From Sphingomonas mucosissima (GTDB lineage Bacteria; Pseudomonadota; Alphaproteobacteria; Sphingomonadales; Sphingomonadaceae): a stretch of DNA of 64,000 nt. Position numbers and translations under genes: made by a program. A model generated the notes under the pieces. That model did no database searches, was not told the origin of the DNA, and saw only the letters and a program-made list of their open reading frames with translations. Position 1 is the stretch's first letter, and each line of letters begins with the position of its first letter. Positions 33,688 to 48,522 of the stretch are shown in pieces. The stretch spans positions 124,001 through 188,000 of the forward strand of contig NZ_NBBJ01000004.1 of NCBI RefSeq assembly GCF_002197665.1, given 5' to 3'.

Positions 33688-35433
33688 GTGGCCGAAAAGG
33701 ATCCTGAGAACACCATTATTGACGTCGAAGGTAACGGCCAAAGTGCTGGCGTTCCGGCGGAAGGGGCGATGGACGTAGGGGCACACGAGCCGCTGGGGAT
33801 CAGCAGCGACGGCAAACGGCACTGGCGCGAAAGCACCATCACCGAACCTGGCCTCGACAGCCGTGGGAACGTCTTCTTCGCGGCGATTGAGATGACGCGG
33901 ATGCCGATGATCCTCACCGATCCGCATCAGCCCGATAATCCGATCGTCTTCGCGAACAAGGCCTTTCTCGACCTGACCCTGTATGAAGAAGAGGAAGTGC
34001 TCGGCCGGAACTGCCGCTTCCTCCAAGGTGCCCGGACCGATCCGGAAAGCGTCACGGCATTGCGCAAGACGGTAGCCGCGAAAGAGTCGATCGCGTTGGA
34101 ACTGCTGAACTACAAGCGCGACGGAACACCGTTCTGGAACGCGGTCTTCATCGGGCCGGTCTATGACACGACCGGCAACCTGCTCTATTTCTTCGCCAGC
34201 CAGCTTGACGTCTCCCGTCGACGGGAGAGTGAGCGCTCCTATCTTCAGGCACAGAAGATGGAGGCTGTGGGCCAGCTCACCGCCGGGTTAGCACATGATT
34301 TCAACAATTTGCTTCAGGTGGTGAACGGCAATCTAGAGCTCGCCGCGGCGCGCAGCTCTGATGATCGCGTGCTGCGCTATCTGGAAAGCGCGCGCTCGGC
34401 GGCGGAGCGCGGCGCGAAGCTGACGGGCCAGTTGCTGGCGTTTGCGCGGAAGACGCGGCTTGATCCGCGGCTGGTGGATGTCAGCGAATGCCTCAACAGC
34501 TTCGCCGACGTGATGGAGAGTGCACTCGGCAAGAAGGTGGAGCTGCATTTCAGCCTGCGGCGGGGACTGCCCAAGGCCCTGCTGGATCCGCAGCAATTCG
34601 AGATGGCAGTCCTGAACATCGCCCTCAATGCCAAGGACGCCATGCCCACTGGCGGCGTGATCGAGCTATCGACTGCCCGCCTGAAACTAAACGGCGACGC
34701 CGCCGCGCGCGGGCTGACCCCGGGCGAATATGTCGCGGTGCAGGTGCGGGACGAAGGCGAGGGCATGACGCCCGAGGTGATGGAACGCGCGATCGAGCCG
34801 TTCTTCACCACCAAGGGCGTCGGCAAGGGAACAGGCCTTGGCCTCGCCATGGCCAGCGGCTTCGTGCAGCAGTCGCGCGGACGTTTGGAGATCGAAAGTG
34901 CGCCGGACAAGGGAACTACCATCCGGATGCTGTTCCCCGTCGCCGCGCGCGATGCGCGCGATCTTCCGCCGGAACCCCAGCAAAGCAGCAAGCCGTCCTC
35001 GAACCAATCGGGCGCTCACATCCTGGTGGTTGAAGACAGTCCGGAAGTCCTCGCTCTCGCGCGCGAGATTCTGGAGGAGGTCGGCTATCAGATCACCACC
35101 GCCGAAACGGGCGAAGAGGGCCTTGCGTCCTTCCAGGCCGCTCCAGAGGGATCGATCGATCTGGTCTTCACCGATCTCGTTATGCCCGGCGGGATCAACG
35201 GCATCGTGCTGGCGCAGGAGATCGCCAGGATCGCGCCCGACGTGCCGGTGCTGATGACAACCGGCTATAACGAGGAACTCGTTGCGGAAGGGCCGCTGCG
35301 CAGCGGGCTCGACGTGCTTGGAAAGCCTTATCGCCGCACCGATCTGCTCGACCGTGTCCGTCAGGCGCTGAATCGCAAGGGCGACGGCGGCCCCCGACGC
35401 AACGCGTCCGACTATGGCGCAGCCGAGGAGTGA
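33688..35433 (+). CDS. LOV-domain hybrid histidine kinase (predicted blue-light sensor)
   Basis: A soluble 581-residue protein. The N-terminal PAS/LOV domain (about 65-175) has the flavin-binding signature GRNCRFLQG with photoactive C109, plus the NYKRDGTPFWN block. The kinase follows with H203 in GLAHDFNNLLQ (HWE-unlike, NtrB-type), N-box NIALNAKDAM (310-319) and GTGLGLA. A C-terminal receiver domain (about 443-562) has phospho-acceptor D496 in VFTDLVMPGG. Blue light would form a flavin-C109 adduct and change autophosphorylation. The GTG start has GGAAG upstream. The output regulator is unknown. Confidence 0.93.
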   Translation: MAEKDPENTIIDVEGNGQSAGVPAEGAMDVGAHEPLGISSDGKRHWRESTITEPGLDSRGNVFFAAIEMTRMPMILTDPHQPDNPIVFANKAFLDLTLYEEEEVLGRNCRFLQGARTDPESVTALRKTVAAKESIALELLNYKRDGTPFWNAVFIGPVYDTTGNLLYFFASQLDVSRRRESERSYLQAQKMEAVGQLTAGLAHDFNNLLQVVNGNLELAAARSSDDRVLRYLESARSAAERGAKLTGQLLAFARKTRLDPRLVDVSECLNSFADVMESALGKKVELHFSLRRGLPKALLDPQQFEMAVLNIALNAKDAMPTGGVIELSTARLKLNGDAAARGLTPGEYVAVQVRDEGEGMTPEVMERAIEPFFTTKGVGKGTGLGLAMASGFVQQSRGRLEIESAPDKGTTIRMLFPVAARDARDLPPEPQQSSKPSSNQSGAHILVVEDSPEVLALAREILEEVGYQITTAETGEEGLASFQAAPEGSIDLVFTDLVMPGGINGIVLAQEIARIAPDVPVLMTTGYNEELVAEGPLRSGLDVLGKPYRRTDLLDRVRQALNRKGDGGPRRNASDYGAAEE

Positions 35434-35775: not shown

Positions 35776-36936
35776 TTATTCCGCCGCCATCAATCCTTCG
35801 TCCACATCGGGCTCTTCGTCGGCGCTGACGCCATCATCCAGCCGCGCCTCGTCAGCGGCAAAGTCCCCCGCATCCTCTGCCGTGATCCCGAAGCGCGCCG
35901 CCACGTCGGGCGCGTAGCGCAGCAGATCAGGCCGCAACCGCAGCAGGCTGAGGTCCTTGGCTTTGCCTTCCATCATCACGTCAAAGAACAGCCCCTCCGC
36001 CATCCGCATAAAGGTGGCGAACTCGAAGGGGTTGGTGAAATCGGCGTGCCCGGTCCAGATCGGCGGGCGCAGCACCATCTTTACCCGCGCAGTGGCCTTC
36101 ACCGGCGCCTTGAGCACCTCCCCCTTCGGTGCCCGTCCCTTCCCGGCCATGGCATCCGCGCGCTGCTTGGGCGTGATTTTCTGCTTCACCTCGCGCATCT
36201 CGGTCCGCGGCGAGGAGAAGTGGATCTTGGGCCGCACTCCGGTGGGCCAAGTGGCGAGGAAGCGCTCCAGCGTGTCACGCATGTCCAGCCGCTCGGGGTT
36301 GAGGCACCAGAAATGCTGATAGTCGAAGATCAGCCTCACGCCCGTCCGCTCGTGAATCCACAGCGCGTCCGCGGCCGAAAAACGAATGTCGTCATTCTCG
36401 AGAACCAGCCGTCGCTTCACATGCTCGGGGCATTGCTCCCACCCCTCGATCCAGCGCGCGCGGCTCGCCTCGTGATCGTCATACACGCCGCCGACATGGG
36501 TGATCATCACCGCTTCATCGTCCAGCTCCATCCGGTCCAGCATTTCGGCCTGGCTGGAAAGATCCCATATGCTCTTCTTCGTCAGCTCGGGATTGGGGGC
36601 GTTCAGCAGCACATATTGTGACGGGTGGAATGACAGCCGGATGTCATACGCGCGGGCCTTGGCGCCAAAGGCGCGCAGCTCCGCATCGCTTTCCGCCACC
36701 ATGTTGTGAAACTGCGGCATCTCCGGATGCGTCGCATAAGGCGCGATGTCCGACGACAGGCGGTACATGTCGAGCTTCTTGCCGTGCAAATAGTCCAGCA
36801 CGTCGTCGAGCAACTCCAGCGAGCATTTGAGGTGCGGGTTCTTCTGCCAGCGGCGCGTGTCACCCGATTTCAGCTCGGGCTTGCCCATCACCTTCACGGG
36901 GAAACCAAGGCGGAGTGGACGGCTGTTATCGGTCAT
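35776..36936 (-). CDS. uvsE: UV damage endonuclease UvsE
   Basis: TIM-barrel endonuclease that nicks DNA 5' of UV photoproducts, an alternative to nucleotide excision repair. The 386 residues contain the family blocks RLGFPVKVMG at the N-terminus, YRLSSDIAPYATH, LSFHPSQYVLLN (metal-ligand His), ITHVGGVYDD, LENDD and FDYQHFW. The C-terminal 60 residues are very acidic and look like a tail beyond the barrel. The location next to a LOV photoreceptor is suggestive but unproven. Confidence 0.93.
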   Translation of the reverse strand: MTDNSRPLRLGFPVKVMGKPELKSGDTRRWQKNPHLKCSLELLDDVLDYLHGKKLDMYRLSSDIAPYATHPEMPQFHNMVAESDAELRAFGAKARAYDIRLSFHPSQYVLLNAPNPELTKKSIWDLSSQAEMLDRMELDDEAVMITHVGGVYDDHEASRARWIEGWEQCPEHVKRRLVLENDDIRFSAADALWIHERTGVRLIFDYQHFWCLNPERLDMRDTLERFLATWPTGVRPKIHFSSPRTEMREVKQKITPKQRADAMAGKGRAPKGEVLKAPVKATARVKMVLRPPIWTGHADFTNPFEFATFMRMAEGLFFDVMMEGKAKDLSLLRLRPDLLRYAPDVAARFGITAEDAGDFAADEARLDDGVSADEEPDVDEGLMAAE

Positions 36937-37059: not shown

Positions 37060-38055
37060 CTAGTCCACCAGCATCCGGGACATGGCAGGGCTGAACCATT
37101 CGACCAGCCCTTCGCGCTGGCGGATCAGTGCCCGCGCCGCCAGGTTGTTCGTCTCTGCCAGCGCCTTCATTGCCGCAGGATCCGCCACGCTGAGGGCGGT
37201 GGCCCAGGCGTCCGCCAGCATCGCGGAGCGATGAACAACACTGACCGACAGCGCATGAGCCATCGGCTTCCCGGTGCGCGGATCGATCGTGTGGCGCCCA
37301 CGGACATAGTCCCCGGACGTCGCAATGGCACATTGGTGCAGCGCAAGCCGCAGCGGCAGCGCGAGCGAACCGGGCAATTCCAGATCAACCCACCACGGAT
37401 CCCCATCAGGCCGCATGCCGCGCCCGACGAACTCCCCGCCGATCTCGACAAGGCTGTGTCCGATCCCGCGCCCCGCCAGCAATGCGGAAAGGCAATCGAC
37501 GGCATACCCTTTGGCGATTCCGGAAAGGTCGAGCCGCACGTCCGCCACGCGTTGCAACCGCCGCGCCGCGGGATCGAAGCGCAGCTGCTGCCATCCGCCA
37601 AGATGCAGGGCCGCGGCAACAGCATCCTCCGTCGGCGGTGCGTCGACGGGCTGAGGCCCGTATCCCCAAAGATCGACAAGGCGGCCGAGCGCCGGATCAA
37701 AGGCGCCATCGGTCGCTGCCGCCACGTCCAGCGCCTCGCCGATCACGGCTGCAAAATCCGCCGGCAGCGACATCCACTGTCCCACCGGCGAGCGGTTGAA
37801 CGCGCTGATCAGCGAGTCCGCCGCCCAATGGCTCATCTGGGAGACAAGCTGATCCAGCCTGCGCTCGACCGCCTTCGCAACGCTATCTACGTCGCAAGCG
37901 GCAGGCGTCGCAAACATCGCCCGCCAGCGCGTGCCCATCGTCGCGCCGCCGAGTTCGACCATCGGAAGATCGGAACGCCACCCGCCAAGCGCGGCCGGAT
38001 CGATCTCCGGCACGAGCAGCCTTGGCTGTCCCTTGGACATATTGGGCGGCACCAA
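37060..38055 (-). CDS. apbE: FAD:protein FMN transferase ApbE
   Basis: Attaches FMN covalently to a Ser/Thr of extracytoplasmic target proteins using FAD as donor. The 331 residues show the ApbE pattern MGTRW near residue 40, then GAFDPALGRLVDLWG, LDLSGIAKGYAVD and VEIGGEFVGRG, and a C-terminal SVVHRSAMLADAWATAL metal-binding region. There is no clear signal peptide. The start is uncertain (TTG 38055, GTG 38052 or ATG 38040). It ends an operon of PepSY, DUF2271 and DUF4198 genes, whose DUF2271 product carries a matching target motif. Confidence 0.93.
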   Translation of the reverse strand: MVPPNMSKGQPRLLVPEIDPAALGGWRSDLPMVELGGATMGTRWRAMFATPAACDVDSVAKAVERRLDQLVSQMSHWAADSLISAFNRSPVGQWMSLPADFAAVIGEALDVAAATDGAFDPALGRLVDLWGYGPQPVDAPPTEDAVAAALHLGGWQQLRFDPAARRLQRVADVRLDLSGIAKGYAVDCLSALLAGRGIGHSLVEIGGEFVGRGMRPDGDPWWVDLELPGSLALPLRLALHQCAIATSGDYVRGRHTIDPRTGKPMAHALSVSVVHRSAMLADAWATALSVADPAAMKALAETNNLAARALIRQREGLVEWFSPAMSRMLVD

Positions 38056-38063
38056 TTTTTAGA

Positions 38064-38930
38064 TCAGGGTGCCGGCACCTCAAGCGTGGTGGTGAAGGTC
38101 ATGCGCCGTTCGGTTGCGCGCGGCGTGCTGGCCTTCGCGTCCATGGTCGTGGCGCTCATCCAGTACATGCCCGGCACCGCCCACTTGATCCGCAGCACTC
38201 CGTCGGCGCCGGTCGTCAGTTCCTGAACCTCTTCGCTCTCGCGGAACTTCTTTGATCCGGGAACCACCGTCACCGTGACACCCGCGGCCGGCTTGCCATC
38301 AATCAGGAAGCGGAACTGGCCTTCTTCATCCGATACCAACGCGCTCGGGTGGGTGATCGGCTGCATCTCCAACCCTTTGCCGGTCGGCTTGAAGACCCCC
38401 TCGCTGGGCGCACCTGCGGTGACATAGATCGCGTTCGCGCCCATCACCTCCGTCAGCTTCACCTCAGTCGCACCCGCGGGAATTTCGGCCGGTGTAGCCA
38501 CGCTCTGTACCCGCGGTGCGCCCTGCGGCGCGCCTGCGCCAGCTGCGGGCGGCGGGCCGCGGCGGCCGCCGACGCGCCAGGTCTCGCCATTCAGTTTGAA
38601 GCGGCCCATCACCGACGACATCTCGGTGCCGATCTTCCACGTCCCCGGCTTGTCGACCTTCACGTCGAAGGTCGTGCGATGACGCCCTGTGGCGGCATTC
38701 TCGATCGCGCCCATGGTGCCGTCCGGCGCCCAGACCTTGATCTGTGCCGGCTGCATGGCGACGTGATCGGGATAGAAGAGGTCGTTCGAAATCGCCGCAT
38801 CGACCGTCACATATTGGTTGGTGTCGGACAGCGTGGTGGTGGACGGCAGCAGCCACTGGCGGTGCGCCATGGCAGGGGCGGCGAGCGTGGCCGCACCGAG
38901 GGCGGCGAGCAGGACGGTCTTCAGGCGCAT
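38064..38930 (-). CDS. DUF4198 domain periplasmic protein
   Basis: Secreted protein of 288 residues with a signal peptide (1-22, ending APAMA). The mature protein begins HRQWLLPS, a pattern typical of DUF4198 proteins, and ends in a carboxypeptidase-regulatory-like beta-sandwich (about 200-285). It has no cysteines and one glycine/proline-rich linker near residues 120-145. The start is ATG 38930 because AGGAAG lies 6 bases upstream; the in-frame TTG at 38945 overlaps the previous stop. DUF4198 proteins are often linked to metal uptake; here it probably partners the flavinylated DUF2271 protein. Confidence 0.88.
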   Translation of the reverse strand: MRLKTVLLAALGAATLAAPAMAHRQWLLPSTTTLSDTNQYVTVDAAISNDLFYPDHVAMQPAQIKVWAPDGTMGAIENAATGRHRTTFDVKVDKPGTWKIGTEMSSVMGRFKLNGETWRVGGRRGPPPAAGAGAPQGAPRVQSVATPAEIPAGATEVKLTEVMGANAIYVTAGAPSEGVFKPTGKGLEMQPITHPSALVSDEEGQFRFLIDGKPAAGVTVTVVPGSKKFRESEEVQELTTGADGVLRIKWAVPGMYWMSATTMDAKASTPRATERRMTFTTTLEVPAP

Positions 38931-38941
38931 GATGATCTTCC

Positions 38942-39412
38942 TCAACGAACGGTGACGGAGCCAAGCTCGGTGCTGCCGGTTGCGCTACCGCCCCGGCCCG
39001 GAACCGTGATCGGCACGCGTACCAGCTCCCGGCCGCCGGTTTCGCGCGCGGCCTCGACATTCAGCACATATTCGCCAGTGGGCAGGTTCTTGGGCAGCGG
39101 GATCTGATAGGTGCCCGGCGCGCGGGTCGCGCCGCTCACGCCATCCGCGGGCAGCTTCAGGCTGCGCCCGCCCTTGCGCCACCAGCTGCGCAGATCGGCC
39201 AGCCACTTGGTGCCCGGCTCGGCGCCGCCCTTCTTCACATCATACCAGACGAATACGGTGCGCGCCGGCCCGCCACTGACGGGCTCCAGCCATCCCGCGA
39301 CATACGGCCGGTGATATTCGGCCACTTTCAGCCGCGGTACCGTGACGCTCACCGTCTGGGCGGTGGCAGGCGCGCTCACCGCGCCGGCAAGAAGCAGATA
39401 GGCTGGGCGCAT
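38942..39412 (-). CDS. DUF2271 protein, predicted flavinylated electron carrier
   Basis: Secreted protein of 156 residues with a signal peptide (1-19, ending APATAQ). The motif D90-GVSGA-T96 matches the Dxx(S/T)GAT consensus that ApbE modifies, so T96 is the predicted FMN-attachment site. A tryptophan-rich stretch (LADLRSWWRK) precedes it. Family studies associate DUF2271 with PepSY membrane proteins and ApbE. It likely shuttles electrons outside the cytoplasmic membrane; the acceptor is unknown. It lies 18 bases after the PepSY gene. Confidence 0.88.
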   Translation of the reverse strand: MRPAYLLLAGAVSAPATAQTVSVTVPRLKVAEYHRPYVAGWLEPVSGGPARTVFVWYDVKKGGAEPGTKWLADLRSWWRKGGRSLKLPADGVSGATRAPGTYQIPLPKNLPTGEYVLNVEAARETGGRELVRVPITVPGRGGSATGSTELGSVTVR

Positions 39413-39430
39413 GAGTTCGCGAACGCTCCT

Positions 39431-40138
39431 TTAGTGGATCAGGAACAGAGCCAGCAGCAGCGGCACGATCACGCTCGTGGCAACTAAAGGCCAGGTGGAT
39501 GGACGATGGCGGGCGTGAAGCTGCAGCAGCAGCAGCCCGGTCAATGTGAAGACGATGCACAGGATGGCAAAGGCATCGATGAACCAGAACCAGGCGTCGC
39601 CCGTGTTGCGGCCCTTGTGAAGATCGTTGACGTACGAGATCCAGCCGCGCCAGGTCGTCTCCGCAGTGATGGCGCCGCTTTCGCGATCGATGCTCACCCA
39701 GCTGTCACGGCCCGGCCCCGGCATCGCGACATAGACCTCCTCGTCAGACCATTCGCCCGGCCGTCCCGCCGGATCGATCGTCACGGCGTCGGCGACAGCC
39801 TGCGCGACGGCCGCGGGAAGCGGTGCATTTGCCGCATGGTCACCGCGCAATTCGGCGAGCCGTGGGGGCGGCAATGTCGCCGCGGCACGCGTCACCTGCG
39901 GTTCCGCCCCGATCGTTGCGGCGTGGTTCAGCGTGATGCCGGTGATGGCGAATAGCAGCATGCCGGCCAGCGACACGGCGGCACTGACCCAGTGCCACAT
40001 GTGCAGCTGCTTCAGCCAGAACGCGCGAACCTTCTTGCGCGGCTTGGCAGGCGCGACCCGGCGCGGCGCCGCAGGCATTCGCGGCATCTCAAGCGGCAGT
40101 CGCTGTTCGCCCGTCACTTCCACGTCGCCGGCCTGCAT
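39431..40138 (-). CDS. PepSY-associated transmembrane protein
   Basis: Inner-membrane protein of 235 residues. A basic cytoplasmic N-terminus is followed by the QLHMWHWVSAA helix (about 44-72), a periplasmic PepSY-like region (about 75-175), then NDLHKGRNTGDAWFWFIDAF and two C-terminal helices (about 185-205 and 213-233). Histidines in QLHMWHW and NDLHKG could ligate heme, as in ferric-reductase-like PepSY proteins. It is the first gene of the ApbE operon, so it probably delivers electrons across the membrane to the DUF2271 flavoprotein. Confidence 0.88.
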   Translation of the reverse strand: MQAGDVEVTGEQRLPLEMPRMPAAPRRVAPAKPRKKVRAFWLKQLHMWHWVSAAVSLAGMLLFAITGITLNHAATIGAEPQVTRAAATLPPPRLAELRGDHAANAPLPAAVAQAVADAVTIDPAGRPGEWSDEEVYVAMPGPGRDSWVSIDRESGAITAETTWRGWISYVNDLHKGRNTGDAWFWFIDAFAILCIVFTLTGLLLLQLHARHRPSTWPLVATSVIVPLLLALFLIH

Positions 40139-40187: not shown

Positions 40188-40212
40188 GCAATCGCGAATA
40201 ACTCGCAACAGC
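40188..40212 (-). promoter_or_regulatory. Iron-box-like palindrome upstream of the PepSY operon
   Basis: A GCGA-ATAAC-TCGC palindrome (40194-40206) within flanks GCAATC and CAACAGC lies about 50 bases upstream of the PepSY start. Read on the minus strand, TTGCGAGTTATTCGCGATTGC resembles the Fur/iron-response boxes I know from sphingomonad TonB-receptor promoters. The match is by eye only. Confidence 0.4.
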
Positions 40213-42963: not shown

Positions 42964-43371
42964 TCAACGCGCAGCTTGACCAGGTCCGGCACCTTGTTCT
43001 GCGGCACGACGCTCGCGATACGTTGCCCGCTCCTCGCTCGTCAGCGTGCCGTCCTTGTTCAAATCGTTGCGATCGAACCAGTCAAGCATCAGGTCGCCCC
43101 ATTCCTGCGGGCTCAGCGCCCCATCCCCATCGGTATCGCCACGCGCGATCATCGGGCGCAATCGTTCCGGTAGCTCGTCGGCCGTGATACGGTCATCACC
43201 GTTCACGTCCAGCCGATGGAAGCGGCGCTCGATCTCGCCGCCGAAATCCAGCCGGGAGGTCACCGTGGGTGGCGTATAATTTTGGGCAGCGCCGTTCTCA
43301 TGTTGCTCTTCGCGCGTGCCACAGGCTGCCAGCAGCGAACCACATGCTGCCAGCATCATCAACGATCGCAT
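42964..43371 (-). CDS. EF-hand calcium-binding lipoprotein
   Basis: A 135-residue predicted lipoprotein. The signal peptide has an LLAAC lipobox with C17. Three EF-hand calcium loops follow: DVNGDDRITADE, DTDGDGALSPQE and DLNKDGTLTSEE, each with acidic residues at positions 1, 3, 5 and 12. It is exported, so it would bind periplasmic or outer-membrane calcium. It directly precedes ppc, whose possible TTG start overlaps its TGA. Its function is unknown. Confidence 0.85.
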   Translation of the reverse strand: MRSLMMLAACGSLLAACGTREEQHENGAAQNYTPPTVTSRLDFGGEIERRFHRLDVNGDDRITADELPERLRPMIARGDTDGDGALSPQEWGDLMLDWFDRNDLNKDGTLTSEERATYRERRAAEQGAGPGQAAR

Positions 43372-44062: not shown

Positions 44063-44854
44063 TTGACCGACACTGTTATCTATGACGTCGCTGATCATGT
44101 TGCGACAATAACGCTCAATCGTCCGGAACGCCGCAACGCGCTGAACTGGGATGCCTATGCCCGGCTGGAGGCGGCATTTCGGCGCTCGGTGAGCGATGAG
44201 GAGGTGCGCTGCGTGATCGTGACCGGCGCGGACCCGGCCTTCTGCTCCGGCGATGACGTGGCGGAAATCATGGCAGGCCCCGATTCCTTCACCGCACGCA
44301 AGGCGCCGCCCGTCGTGCGCCACCAGCCCACGCCTGCGGCGATGGCGGCGCTGGAATGCGACAAGCCGGTGATCGCCGCGGTGAACGGCGCTGCCGTCGG
44401 ATGGGGCATGGAGCTGGCGCTATATGCCGACATCCGAATCGCATCGGAGAAAGCGAAGTTCGCGGAGCTGTTCATCAAGCGCGGCCTCGTGTGCGATGTG
44501 GGCGGCTTCTATCGGCTGCCCTCCATCGTCGGCCCCGCAAAGGCGGCAGAGCTGCTGTTCACCGGCGACGTGATCGATGCCACCGAGGCGGCGCGTATCG
44601 GCTTGGTGCGCGAAGTCGTGCCACACGATGAGTTGATGGCAAGCGCCCGGGCGCTCGCCGCGCGGATCGCCGCCAATCCGCCGCTGGCGCTACGCTACAT
44701 GAAGGAAGGCCTTCGCCGCGCCGCCTACGGCGACCCACGCGACCTTGGCGGGTGGGCAATCGAGATAATCCGCCGTTTGATGACGACCGAGGATCACAAG
44801 GAAGGCGTCGCTGCCTTCATGGAGAAGCGCGAACCGGTGTTCAGCGGGCGCTGA
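44063..44854 (+). CDS. Enoyl-CoA hydratase/isomerase family protein
   Basis: Crotonase-fold protein of 263 residues. Features are NRPERRNALNWD near the N-terminus, the CSGDDVAEI oxyanion block, AAVNGAAVGWGMELALYADIRIAS (second oxyanion block), and FIKRGLVCDVGGFYRLP, which carries no typical Glu-Glu dyad; the residues here are Leu/Cys/Asp, so the exact reaction is uncertain. The start is TTG 44063, with AGGAG at 44051-44055. Confidence 0.9.
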   Translation: MTDTVIYDVADHVATITLNRPERRNALNWDAYARLEAAFRRSVSDEEVRCVIVTGADPAFCSGDDVAEIMAGPDSFTARKAPPVVRHQPTPAAMAALECDKPVIAAVNGAAVGWGMELALYADIRIASEKAKFAELFIKRGLVCDVGGFYRLPSIVGPAKAAELLFTGDVIDATEAARIGLVREVVPHDELMASARALAARIAANPPLALRYMKEGLRRAAYGDPRDLGGWAIEIIRRLMTTEDHKEGVAAFMEKREPVFSGR

Positions 44855-44987
44855 CCGAGGGCGCGCGAACGGGTAAAGTCCCCAGCGTCGGCAGCGCCGC
44901 GCAGCATCGGGCGGTCAGCGCAAAGCGACACCGCTGCCAAGCGACACAGGCTTGCCCCTCAGCACTCGCCTGTACACATGCCGGGGC

Positions 44988-45818
44988 GTGATCGTCACCC
45001 GCTTCGCCCCCTCGCCTACCGGCCGGCTGCACCTCGGCCATGCGTATAGCGCGATCCTCGCGCATGATTTCGCGCGCCGCCAGGGCGGTCGTTTCCTGCT
45101 GCGGATCGAAGACATTGACGGCACGCGCAGCCGCCCGGAACATGTCAAAACGATCATCGCCGATCTCGCTTGGCTCGGCCTTTCCTGGGACGGCGACGTC
45201 GTCCACCAGTCGCAGCGTCTCTCCGCCTACGCCGGGGCGCTCGACCGGCTGCGCGAGATGGGTCTTCTCTATCGCTGCTATTGCACGCGGGCAGAGATCG
45301 CCGCAGCAAGCCTGTCCGCTCCGCACGGCGCCGAGCCGATCTATCCCGGCACCTGCCGTGTGCTGACCCGGCAAAATGCCGAGCGCCCGCATTGCTGGCG
45401 CCTCGACATGGCGCGCGCCACGGCCATCGCGGGACCGCTCACTTGGCAAGATCACGGCCGGACGATCGTTGCCGACCCGCTCACGGCCGGCGACGTTGTG
45501 CTCGCCCGCAAGGACGCGCCCGCCAGCTACCATCTCGCGGTCACCGTCGACGATGCATGGCAGGGCGTGACCGATGTGGTGCGCGGGCAGGATCTGTTTG
45601 CTGCCACCCATGTTCACCGCCTGCTCCAGGCGCTGCTTGGCCTGCCGACGCCCGCCTATCACCACCACCGCCTCCTTACCGGGCCCGACGGCGTCCGGCT
45701 CGCCAAGCGCCACGGCGCACCGGCGCTGGCGGCCCTTCGCGAAGGGGGTTCGAATGGGCTGGCGCTTGCGACGGAACTGCGCGTCGGACGGGTTCCCATC
45801 GGTGCCACCGATACCTAG
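44988..45818 (+). CDS. gluQ: Glutamyl-Q tRNA(Asp) synthetase
   Basis: Truncated GluRS-like enzyme (276 residues) that attaches glutamate to queuosine 34 of tRNA-Asp; it lacks the anticodon-binding domain. The HIGH-like HLGHAY motif, the FAPSPTGRLHLGH block, the zinc-site CYC...YPGTC region, and the RLAKRHG (KMSKS-like) motif are visible. The start was placed at GTG 44988, giving MIVTRFAPSPTG. Confidence 0.92.
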   Translation: MIVTRFAPSPTGRLHLGHAYSAILAHDFARRQGGRFLLRIEDIDGTRSRPEHVKTIIADLAWLGLSWDGDVVHQSQRLSAYAGALDRLREMGLLYRCYCTRAEIAAASLSAPHGAEPIYPGTCRVLTRQNAERPHCWRLDMARATAIAGPLTWQDHGRTIVADPLTAGDVVLARKDAPASYHLAVTVDDAWQGVTDVVRGQDLFAATHVHRLLQALLGLPTPAYHHHRLLTGPDGVRLAKRHGAPALAALREGGSNGLALATELRVGRVPIGATDT

Positions 45819-45827
45819 ATTAGACGC

Positions 45828-46064
45828 ATGCAAACCTTCCTGATCATCCTCCTCGTTGCGGCGCTGCTTGCGACGCTGGTCGCGCTCGTGCGCGGCATTG
45901 TCGCATTCCTGCAGAGCGCCAGTGCGGAGGCGCGGGGAACCGGCACCTCCGGGCCGACGCAGAGCCAGCTCAAGTCGAACAAGATGATGCAGCAGCGGAT
46001 CCTGTTCCAGGCGCTGGCCGTCATCATCGTCGTCGTGCTGCTGTTCTCCGCCGGGCGCACCTGA
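45828..46064 (+). CDS. Twin-transmembrane protein, HIG1-like
   Basis: A 78-residue protein with two hydrophobic helices (about 3-28 and 58-75) and a basic/polar loop SQLKSNKMMQQRIL between them, the pattern of alphaproteobacterial HIG1-domain proteins, some of which associate with respiratory complexes. It starts 9 bases after gluQ. Confidence 0.8.
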   Translation: MQTFLIILLVAALLATLVALVRGIVAFLQSASAEARGTGTSGPTQSQLKSNKMMQQRILFQALAVIIVVVLLFSAGRT

Positions 46065-46070
46065 TCGTCG

Positions 46071-46086
46071 GCGGCGCGCGCGCCGC
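46071..46086 (+). terminator. GC palindrome followed by TTT
   Basis: A 16-base perfect palindrome GCGGCGCGCGCGCCGC followed by TTTG lies just past the stop of the twin-TM gene. The loop would have to form within the palindrome, so the stem is short. This is a weak candidate terminator. Confidence 0.35.
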
Positions 46087-46223
46087 TTTGATGAACCAAA
46101 AGGCTGACCGTTGGTTAAACCTTGATCGAGGTTAACGGATGGTCGACGGGGCAAACTCCGCGTGCCGTCCTTGCCCGTGCGCGCTTGCGCCGCGGCGATC
46201 ATGATGGAAGGCTACGACAGTAG

Positions 46224-47477
46224 ATGCAGCCGCGCGAAGCCGCCTTGCCCGATGATCTCGCCACTCGCTTTGGTCAGGTCCGATCGCTGAGCGAAGCACT
46301 TGCCGCGCCGTTGAGCGACGCCGACGCCACCGTCCAGTCGATGGACGATGCCTCCCCTGCCAAATGGCACCTGGCGCATACCACCTGGTTCTTCGAGACC
46401 TTTATTCTGCGCGATCACGTGCCCGGCTATCGGCTGCACGATCCGCGCTTCCCGTTCCTCTTCAACAGCTATTATGAGGCCGAGGGACGCCGCCACGCGC
46501 GCGGCCGACGCGGCATGGTGACCCGCCCGACCTTGGCCGACGTGAAGGCGTATCGCGGGGCCGTGGATGCCGCGCTGATCGCAGCCTTGCCGTCGCTTGA
46601 CAATGCAGCGCGCGGCTTGGTGGAGCTTGGCTGTCATCATGAGCAGCAGCATCAGGAATTGCTGCTGACCGACGTGCTCCACCTGTTCTCCGAAAATCCG
46701 CTTGAGCCGGCCTTGTGGTCGCCTGCCCCGAAGATCCCCGTGGCAGTGCCCGACGCTATCGGCTGGATCGACCATGACGAAGGCGTGGTCGAGATTGGCC
46801 ATGACGGTCGCGGTTTCGCGTTCGATTGCGAGGGGCCACGCCATCGCACGTTGCTCTCGCCGCATTCTCTCGCCGACCGCACCGTTACCAATGGCGAATG
46901 GCAGCAATTCATTGCCGACGGCGGCTATCGCGAGCCGCGCTGCTGGCTGGCCGATGGCTGGGCGTGGCTGCAACGTGAGGGAATTCATGCCCCGCTCTAT
47001 TGGGAAGACCGCGACGGCGTCTGGACCCGCTTCGGGCTGGACGGCCGCCGGCCGATCGATCCTGCCGCGCCGGTGACGCATGTCAGCTTCTATGAGGCGG
47101 ATGCCTATGCCAGCTGGGCCGGCGCGCGCCTTCCCACCGAGGCGGAATGGGAAGCGGCAGCTGCCGCCTACGATCCGCGCGGCGGCAATCAGCTTGATGC
47201 CGCCAGCGCGGTTGAGCCGCGGCCAGCGGAGGGCAGCCCGGCGTTCTTCGGCGACGTGTGGGAATGGACCGGCAGCGCCTATCGCCCGTACCCCGGCTTT
47301 GCGGCGGCCGATGGCGCCGTCGGCGAGTATAACGGCAAGTTCATGAGCGGCCAGTTCGTGCTGCGCGGGGGATCCTGCGCGACGCCGCGGGGCCATGCGC
47401 GCGCCTCCTACCGCAACTTCTTCTACCCCCATCAGCGCTGGCAATTCACCGGCGTGCGGCTGGCCCGCGATCGCTGA
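46224..47477 (+). CDS. egtB: Ergothioneine biosynthesis sulfoxide synthase EgtB
   Basis: Non-heme iron enzyme that joins a thiol donor to trimethylhistidine (hercynine). The 417 residues comprise an N-terminal DinB-like domain with iron ligands H52 (KWHLAHTTWF), H139 and H143 in CHHEQQHQE, and a C-terminal FGE-sulfatase domain (about 180-415) with GGNQ/GDVWEWTGSAY and the RGGSCATPRGHARASYRNFF end. It precedes egtD on the same strand. No egtC or egtE is next to it. Confidence 0.94.
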   Translation: MQPREAALPDDLATRFGQVRSLSEALAAPLSDADATVQSMDDASPAKWHLAHTTWFFETFILRDHVPGYRLHDPRFPFLFNSYYEAEGRRHARGRRGMVTRPTLADVKAYRGAVDAALIAALPSLDNAARGLVELGCHHEQQHQELLLTDVLHLFSENPLEPALWSPAPKIPVAVPDAIGWIDHDEGVVEIGHDGRGFAFDCEGPRHRTLLSPHSLADRTVTNGEWQQFIADGGYREPRCWLADGWAWLQREGIHAPLYWEDRDGVWTRFGLDGRRPIDPAAPVTHVSFYEADAYASWAGARLPTEAEWEAAAAAYDPRGGNQLDAASAVEPRPAEGSPAFFGDVWEWTGSAYRPYPGFAAADGAVGEYNGKFMSGQFVLRGGSCATPRGHARASYRNFFYPHQRWQFTGVRLARDR

Positions 47478-47544
47478 CACCACCCCGCACGGCGCAAGGG
47501 CAAATGCTCGGCGACGAACGACGGCACGAACAGGAAGGACGCCC

Positions 47545-48522
47545 ATGCTGAAGCAGGAAATGGAGGACGGCCAGGCCTCCCTCGCCGACCCGCAGTTCCG
47601 TGCGGATGTGCTGAATGGCCTGGCGCTTCGCCCGCGCGCGATGCCCGCCCGCTGGTTCTACGACCGGCGCGGCTCGGACCTGTTCGAGGAAATCACCCGG
47701 CTGCCTGAATATTATCCGACGCGCACCGAGACCGCGCTTCTCCAGCGGATCGCGCCCGAGCTTGCTGGTCACATCCCCGCAGGCGCCGCCGTGGTGGAGT
47801 TCGGCTCCGGCTCGTCGACCAAGACGCCGCTGGTGCTCGATGCCGTGCAGCCCAGCGCCTATGTGCCGATCGACATTTCCGGCGACATGCTGCGCGAATC
47901 CTCGCGCATCGTCTCGGATCGCTATCCCGGCCTTCTCGTGCTCCCGTTCGAAGCGGATTTCACGCGGCTGGTCGATCTGCCGCGCACCATTGCGAACGCG
48001 CCCAAGCTCGGTTTCTTCCCCGGCTCGACGATCGGCAATCTGATCCCGCGCGCCGCGGTGGATCTGCTGCGCGCGATGCGCGGTTCGCTGGGCGAGGGCG
48101 CGCGCCTGCTGATCGGCATGGATCGGATCAAGGACGAAGCCGTGCTGGTCCGCGCCTATGACGATGCGGCGGGCGTGACGGCAGCGTTCAACTGCAATCT
48201 CCTCGCCCGCATCAATCGCGAGCTGGACGGCACCATCCCGCTCGACGCCTTTCGCCACCGCGCGATCTGGAACGACGATCGCGCGCGGATCGAGATGCAC
48301 CTGGAGGCAACGCGCGATGTCTCGTTCGAGGTCGAAGGCCGCCCCTTCTCGATCCCCGCCGGCGAGACCATCCACACCGAAAACAGCCACAAATATGGCC
48401 CGCGCGATGCCCGCATCCTGTTGCGCGCTGGCGGCTGGACGCCGTTGACCGAATGGACCGACCCCGACGGCCTGTTCGCCGTCATCCTTGCAGAAGCGCA
48501 GCCGGAACGCTTCGCCCCCTAA
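47545..48522 (+). CDS. egtD: L-histidine N-alpha-methyltransferase EgtD
   Basis: SAM-dependent enzyme that trimethylates histidine to hercynine, the first ergothioneine step. The 325 residues contain RWFYDRRGSDLFEEIT near residues 36-51, LPEYYPTRTE, and VVEFGSGSSTKT (SAM motif). FFPGSTIGN and the C-terminal IHTENSHKY also match the EgtD family. The ATG at 47545 is preceded by AGGAAGG. The egtB-egtD pair makes a coherent two-gene ergothioneine unit. Confidence 0.95.
   Translation: MLKQEMEDGQASLADPQFRADVLNGLALRPRAMPARWFYDRRGSDLFEEITRLPEYYPTRTETALLQRIAPELAGHIPAGAAVVEFGSGSSTKTPLVLDAVQPSAYVPIDISGDMLRESSRIVSDRYPGLLVLPFEADFTRLVDLPRTIANAPKLGFFPGSTIGNLIPRAAVDLLRAMRGSLGEGARLLIGMDRIKDEAVLVRAYDDAAGVTAAFNCNLLARINRELDGTIPLDAFRHRAIWNDDRARIEMHLEATRDVSFEVEGRPFSIPAGETIHTENSHKYGPRDARILLRAGGWTPLTEWTDPDGLFAVILAEAQPERFAP

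Follow-up and report, generated by a model that had tools for sequence, protein, structure and literature searches.

What is the function of four tightly spaced minus-strand genes of Sphingomonas mucosissima, one of which encodes a flavin transferase and another its predicted substrate, and which electron acceptor do they serve? The genes lie at 37060-40138 of the window analysed here (the whole 64,000-nucleotide stretch of contig NZ_NBBJ01000004.1) and encode a PepSY membrane protein, a DUF2271 protein, a DUF4198 protein and ApbE. The reading favoured below, with a probability of about 0.68, is that they form a Fur-controlled operon for an assimilatory reductase of ferric iron or ferric chelates, of the known PepSY-like flavinylation kind. 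The features on which the argument rests are the following:

40191-40209, no strand assigned: candidate Fur operator of 19 base pairs (bp), GTTGCGAGTTATTCGCGAT on the minus-strand reading, 53-71 bases before the PepSY ATG (de novo palindromic motif)
39431-40138, minus strand: PepSY_TM_like_2 membrane protein, 235 amino acids (Pfam, conservation, hydropathy)
38942-39412, minus strand: DUF2271 protein, 156 amino acids, predicted flavinylation substrate with a Sec-type signal peptide recognized by eye (Pfam, conservation)
39125-39127, minus strand: codon of T96, predicted acceptor of flavin mononucleotide (FMN) in D90-GVSGA-T96 (conserved Thr)
38064-38930, minus strand: DUF4198 protein from its likely ATG, with a signal peptide followed by a mature N-terminal His (Pfam, alignment, model)
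37060-38055, minus strand: ApbE flavin transferase, 331 amino acids from TTG 38055 (or from GTG 38052 or ATG 38040), without signal peptide (Pfam)

In the order PepSY_TM_like_2, DUF2271, DUF4198 and ApbE, all four products pass the Pfam cut-offs (E-values of 5.4e-77, 3.9e-39, 4.9e-48 and 3.5e-69, respectively). The gaps measure 18 bases between PepSY and DUF2271, 11 bases from DUF2271 to the likely DUF4198 ATG (38930) and 8 or 23 bases between DUF4198 and ApbE, depending on the ApbE start chosen; for DUF4198, ATG 38930 appears more likely than TTG 38945, where the longest open reading frame (ORF) opens. The transcription unit should also take in the operator at 40191-40209. Relatives were gathered by scanning public genomes with DUF2271, and the best 80 of 107 loci, nearly all from Proteobacteria and chiefly from sphingomonads, were retained; 73 of these 80 keep the four genes in the order of the window. 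The system is patchy across the sampled genomes, since DUF2271 is present in 19 of 147 genomes from the order and exceeds the family cut-off in 11 of 240 genomes from the class (25 at E 0.001) and in 43 of 299 from the phylum (47 at E 0.001).

The first-pass annotation, made from the letters of the sequence, had described this spacing and gene content, with two exported proteins beside ApbE, and had proposed D90-GVSGA-T96 as a flavinylation target fed by a membrane electron carrier. Pfam matches and coordinates agree with the gene content, export signals are found on DUF2271 and DUF4198 and none on ApbE, and both the site, which reads ADGVSGATR, and the gene order are conserved. Its claim that the gene set was uncharacterised does not hold. 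The operon is a member of an already described type, whose combination of genes has been published, as have the flavinylation of DUF2271 and the proposal on iron: of 3220 catalogued PepSY-like clusters, 2833 include DUF2271 and 1500 include DUF4198, and iron reduction was proposed for them (Meheust et al. 2021, PMC8238504). As in that system, a PF16357 PepSY protein, DUF2271 with [ST]GA[ST] and a signal peptide, DUF4198 and ApbE occur here in one cluster; the difference is the lack of an ApbE signal peptide in the window and in most relatives examined, a matter not raised in the accessible passages of PMC8238504. Ferric iron had thus already been proposed as the acceptor. On the whole the description was partly supported, having overlooked the Fur-type operator and the missing ApbE signal peptide.

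The candidate Fur operator and the iron context

A de novo, palindrome-constrained search of the sequences that precede the PepSY gene (79, of which 74 were used after dereplication) yielded the motif ATTGCGAATcATTCGCAAT, which scores at least 13 bits in 71 of the 79 upstream regions. The window operator reaches 23.6 bits and is the best site in the window, the next one scoring 12.0. In the window genome (an assembly of 3.58 Mb in 16 contigs, used for the genome-wide gene and site counts) a consensus search returned seven places, with ten matches as against two for the reversed control, and a copy of 22.7 bits stands 59 bp before a bfd-bfr (bfd-bacterioferritin) pair identified by Pfam. When the feoB and PKHD loci were scanned separately, feoB proved to be preceded, at 274 bp, by a site of 27.4 bits, and the PKHD locus to contain one of 17.0 bits; this genome has genes for Fur, FeoB and PKHD.

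The homologous operon of Caulobacter, CC3059-CC3063 (CCNA_03155-03159), has the same order of PepSY/transporter, DUF2271, DUF4198 and ApbE genes; Fur binds its promoter in an electrophoretic mobility shift assay (EMSA) and represses it (PMC3751524), and its transposon mutants lose fitness in ethylenediaminetetraacetic acid (EDTA; PMC12004947). It differs from the window operon in its fifth gene, a flavoprotein reductase, in whose place the window has uvdE. Because the motif precedes bfd-bfr and feoB, Fur is encoded, and Caulobacter Fur binds the homologous promoter, the evidence strongly suggests that the 19-bp motif is a candidate Fur operator. Within 8 kb of the 75 loci that hold all four genes, TonB-dependent-receptor-like ORFs occur at 47, PKHD-type hydroxylases at 49, TonB at 25 and flavodoxin-type reductases at 12.

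The predicted electron path from PepSY to DUF4198

Three hydrophobic segments are apparent in the PepSY protein from hydropathy (51-69, 187-205 and 216-234), and conservation reaches 96-100% at its histidines 49, 72, 174, 208 and 235. The chain ends with His235, and in 69 of 78 relatives it likewise ends with a histidine. The basic N-terminal tail and the large acidic loop suggest an N-in, C-out topology, in which the five histidines would fit predicted haem sites on both membrane faces, by analogy with FoxB (PMC11334425). With the PepSY ferric reductases FoxB, HiuB and VciB the protein shares the PepSY membrane architecture, conserved histidines and an iron context; it differs from them in having three hydrophobic segments and a separate, predicted flavinylated partner, and its haem sites are predicted. 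Neither the PepSY protein nor DUF2271 gave a match in a sequence search of the PDB up to E 1. In Alteromonas, PepSY genes next to receptors that respond to iron have been read as inner-membrane siderophore permeases (PMC7190382), and the window protein might likewise be a permease and not an electron carrier, but the number of hydrophobic segments, the five conserved histidines and the co-conservation of PepSY with a flavinylation substrate and ApbE make this very unlikely.

As regards the substrate, D..[ST]GA[ST] arises in 15 of 20,000 shuffles of the DUF2271 protein, in which SGAT occupies residues 93-96. The acceptor Thr is kept in all 81 aligned rows (the window and 80 loci), and [ST]GA[ST] in 73 of them. 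Another DUF2271 protein is flavinylated by its own ApbE, and the modification is lost upon a Thr-to-Ala change (PMC8238504). Profile searches found one ApbE and one DUF2271 in the window genome and no FMN_bind protein, so that DUF2271 is the sole substrate of the two tested families for the sole ApbE. As to its export, no consistent twin-arginine (Tat) motif was seen by eye in the sphingomonad N-termini; a few gammaproteobacterial ones start with MRR. Single-chain ApbE-DUF2271 fusions with a leader also exist (L035, L037, L039, L040, L041 and L131), and their sites read DGV[ST]RPTR or similar, with the Thr retained and the GA lost, as judged from the four that were read over their whole length (L035, L037, L039 and the L041 group).

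The fourth component, DUF4198, carries a candidate metal site at its mature N-terminus, for which two codons are relevant:

38862-38864, minus strand: codon of mature His1 of DUF4198 (alignment)
38763-38765, minus strand: codon of mature His34 of DUF4198, candidate second metal ligand (alignment)

After the predicted signal cleavage all 80 rows start with His (two of them, L099 and L105, stem from a copy not adjoining the operon), with His34 at 99% and His172 at 91%. The structure model, with a predicted local distance difference test score (pLDDT) of 90.4, matches Zcp (9mhj) with Z 19.4 and a root-mean-square deviation (rmsd) of 4.8 over 218 aligned residues, and the Ni-bound Ideonella DUF4198 (9gcb) with Z 14.3 and rmsd 4.5 over 208, residue 1 falling on residue 1. 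The Ideonella protein binds Ni2+ via His1 and His18 (PMC12537917); in the window protein His34 is the candidate for the second of these roles. A DUF4198-type fold is shared with both it and Zcp (9mhi-9mho), and the first mature residue is His in the window protein and in 9gcb; the differences are an identity of 14-17% and an operon context that is here iron, not nickel or zinc. A natural guess is that the DUF4198 His site would handle iron in these Fur-type operons. PepSY is not mentioned in the accessible Ideonella text (PMC12537917), and no report joining N-terminal-His DUF4198 chemistry to a flavinylated PepSY system was found in the literature searched, most subscription papers being outside its reach.

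The same relay could instead serve a metal or acceptor other than iron (nickel, zinc, copper), or DUF4198 could merely shuttle a divalent metal. Besides the nickel site of the Ideonella protein, Zcp, in structures with zinc, copper or cobalt, comes closest among solved relatives, and a zur mutant of Caulobacter shows changes in CC3060/CC3061 (PMC4176598). Ni2+ and Zn2+, however, require no reduction, and the Fur-type operator held in common with bfd-bfr and feoB, the TonB-receptor and PKHD neighbours of the relatives and the Fur EMSA in Caulobacter (PMC3751524) point to iron, which renders a non-iron relay unlikely.

For the ferric reductase we infer haem ligation, the electron path, iron as acceptor, the role of DUF4198 and the site of ApbE action, as follows. 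In low iron, Fur would leave the operator and the four genes would be expressed. ApbE would move FMN from flavin adenine dinucleotide (FAD) onto T96 of DUF2271, and the three-helix PepSY protein, with His placed for haem on both faces, would take electrons from a donor in the cytoplasm or from quinol and bring them to the periplasmic face. From there FMN-DUF2271 would pass them to ferric iron, perhaps held on DUF4198, whose N-terminal His metal site would present or receive the metal, and the Fe(II) would then be imported through FeoB.

A number of points weigh against the ferric reductase. For the operator, eight of the 79 upstream regions have no motif (L081, L085, L096, L098, L101, L119, L121 and L123); the motif log-likelihood, 687 against 43, 37 and 37 in three shuffled sets, comes from a search with the palindrome imposed and from controls with fewer seeds and iterations; one shuffled window reached 18.2 bits, the other two topping at 11.0 and 12.9; and the remaining five places of the genome pattern are not tied to an iron gene. 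For the proteins, eight of 81 DUF2271 rows lack GA ahead of the Thr (DGVSGPT, DGVTSTT twice, NGVTSAT, NGVTAPT, DGVTGPT twice and DGLSSPT), the metals shown for other DUF4198 proteins are Ni or Zn, and ApbE has neither an N-terminal nor a lipoprotein signal of the kind expected of a secreted ApbE. As for the context, no iron gene was seen adjoining the window operon, which sits between ppc and uvdE, a TonB receptor was found in none of the ten long window ORFs scanned, and the Caulobacter-type cytoplasmic flavodoxin-type reductase, which concerns the electron donor, is absent from the operon and near only the 12 of 75 relatives counted above.

An ApbE without a leader

The ApbE domain itself has the T-fold and the conserved FAD/Mg residues (H250 and D277 are invariant), and the model matches Vibrio ApbE (6nxi) with Z 39.0 and rmsd 1.9 over 299 aligned residues. 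Upstream of the domain, back to the stop at 38061, there is only a hydrophilic stretch, without any hydrophobic one, that contains the following motif:

38008-38022, minus strand: RLLVP, N-terminal motif located where a secreted ApbE carries its signal peptide (present in 62 of 77 loci; ordered in the model)

In the ApbE model (pLDDT 95.9) the segment is an ordered strand, and it lies outside the range aligned to 19 known ApbE-family structures among the matches listed, for which the aligned part starts at model residues 20-27. The DUF2271 leader of the window was judged by eye, and those of the relatives by a hydropathy detector. In its permissive form, with the duplicates L025, L038 and L042 and matches below 30 bits (hence the fusion L037) left out, the detector assigned a leader to 121 of 121 DUF4198 and 115 of 126 DUF2271 proteins and none to 95 of 106 non-fused ApbEs. 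By eye, the 11 flagged ApbEs comprise four signal peptides (L109, L117, L120 and L122), one unclear case (L154) and six in which the N-terminal motif itself had been picked (L030, L036, L082, L083, L089 and L148); six of the 11 missed DUF2271 proteins are ApbE fusions, and all five fusions scored by the detector were flagged for a leader. A stricter hydropathy cut of 1.9 gave 77 of 79 DUF4198, 42 of 80 DUF2271 and 5 of 77 ApbE, which leaves the ranking unchanged but makes DUF2271 overlap more.

Several origins of this pattern were considered and rejected. An upstream ApbE start supplying a leader is ruled out in the window by the in-frame TAA at 38061-38059, and in 15 relatives the open frame before the domain is at most 45 residues, none hydrophobic above 1.9. 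An ApbE-DUF4198 fusion by read-through or frameshift is ruled out because the relative frame of the two genes varies (51, 19 and 4 of 74 loci). The tree places the four ApbEs that bear a leader in a single clade (support 0.95), next to 84 without one (support 0.70); a single loss of the leader was set aside since the leaderless L044 falls outside, and a gain may be the explanation instead. At the DUF4198-ApbE junction, 42 of 76 loci have a CTG, in frame with ApbE, that shares bases with the stop codon of DUF4198 (CTGA), which is never the case for ATG, and some loci (L103, L114, L083 and others) offer no ATG or GTG there; in such loci ApbE may start at CTG, or GC-rich final codons could account for the pattern.

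It has been described that location controls ApbE function, a cytosolic Klebsiella ApbE serving a cytosolic fumarate reductase (PMC12052999). With that enzyme the window ApbE shares the lack of a signal peptide, but the Klebsiella substrate is cytosolic, whereas the sole substrate predicted here has a signal peptide. ApbE and DUF2271 might accordingly not be enzyme and substrate at all, the leaderless ApbE modifying a cytoplasmic protein, as in Klebsiella, or only splitting FAD. The invariant Thr and a genome with a single ApbE, a single DUF2271 and no FMN_bind argue for the pairing, and signal-peptide-truncated DUF2271 and ApbE functioned together in the E. coli cytosol (PMC8238504); we consider an unpaired ApbE quite unlikely.

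Since both proteins function in that cytosol when they lack signal peptides, flavinylation before export is chemically possible. A tentative proposal, to which we give rather less than even odds, is that a stably leaderless cytoplasmic ApbE, with its ordered N-terminal R-[VI]-[LA]-[VI]-P, flavinylates DUF2271 before Sec-type export, using cytosolic FAD and requiring no FAD export, and that the ApbE-DUF2271 fusions have regained a leader. In the literature searched, within the same limits as above, no report of a leaderless ApbE with an exported substrate was found; the phrase "cytosolic flavinylation" returned one count for PMC8238504 and was not found in its main text as accessible.

Surroundings of the operon and significance

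The ppc gene stands upstream in the window and in five close relatives, in four of which uvdE is downstream. In the window a UvdE-type ultraviolet endonuclease gene (35776-36936, Pfam) directly follows the operon; in several Sphingomonas this gene and ppc flank the operon on its two sides. Farther away, a PAS-histidine kinase-receiver hybrid (33688-35433) contains NCRFLQG, which we take to be the LOV blue-light motif; 42964-43371 encodes a small EF-hand protein with a lipoprotein-like leader, and 44844-47546 on the minus strand holds two long ORFs (453 and 444 amino acids) with no Pfam match at 1e-5.

The operon would be a further, now well-placed member of a widespread iron-assimilation system whose chemistry awaits reconstitution, and the analysis joins two literatures, on flavinylated PepSY clusters and on N-terminal-histidine DUF4198 metalloproteins, in one testable electron path. 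If ApbE does act in the cytoplasm, this case would depart from the accepted view that an ApbE is paired with its substrate by location, and the Sec pathway would be moving a protein with covalently bound flavin across the membrane.

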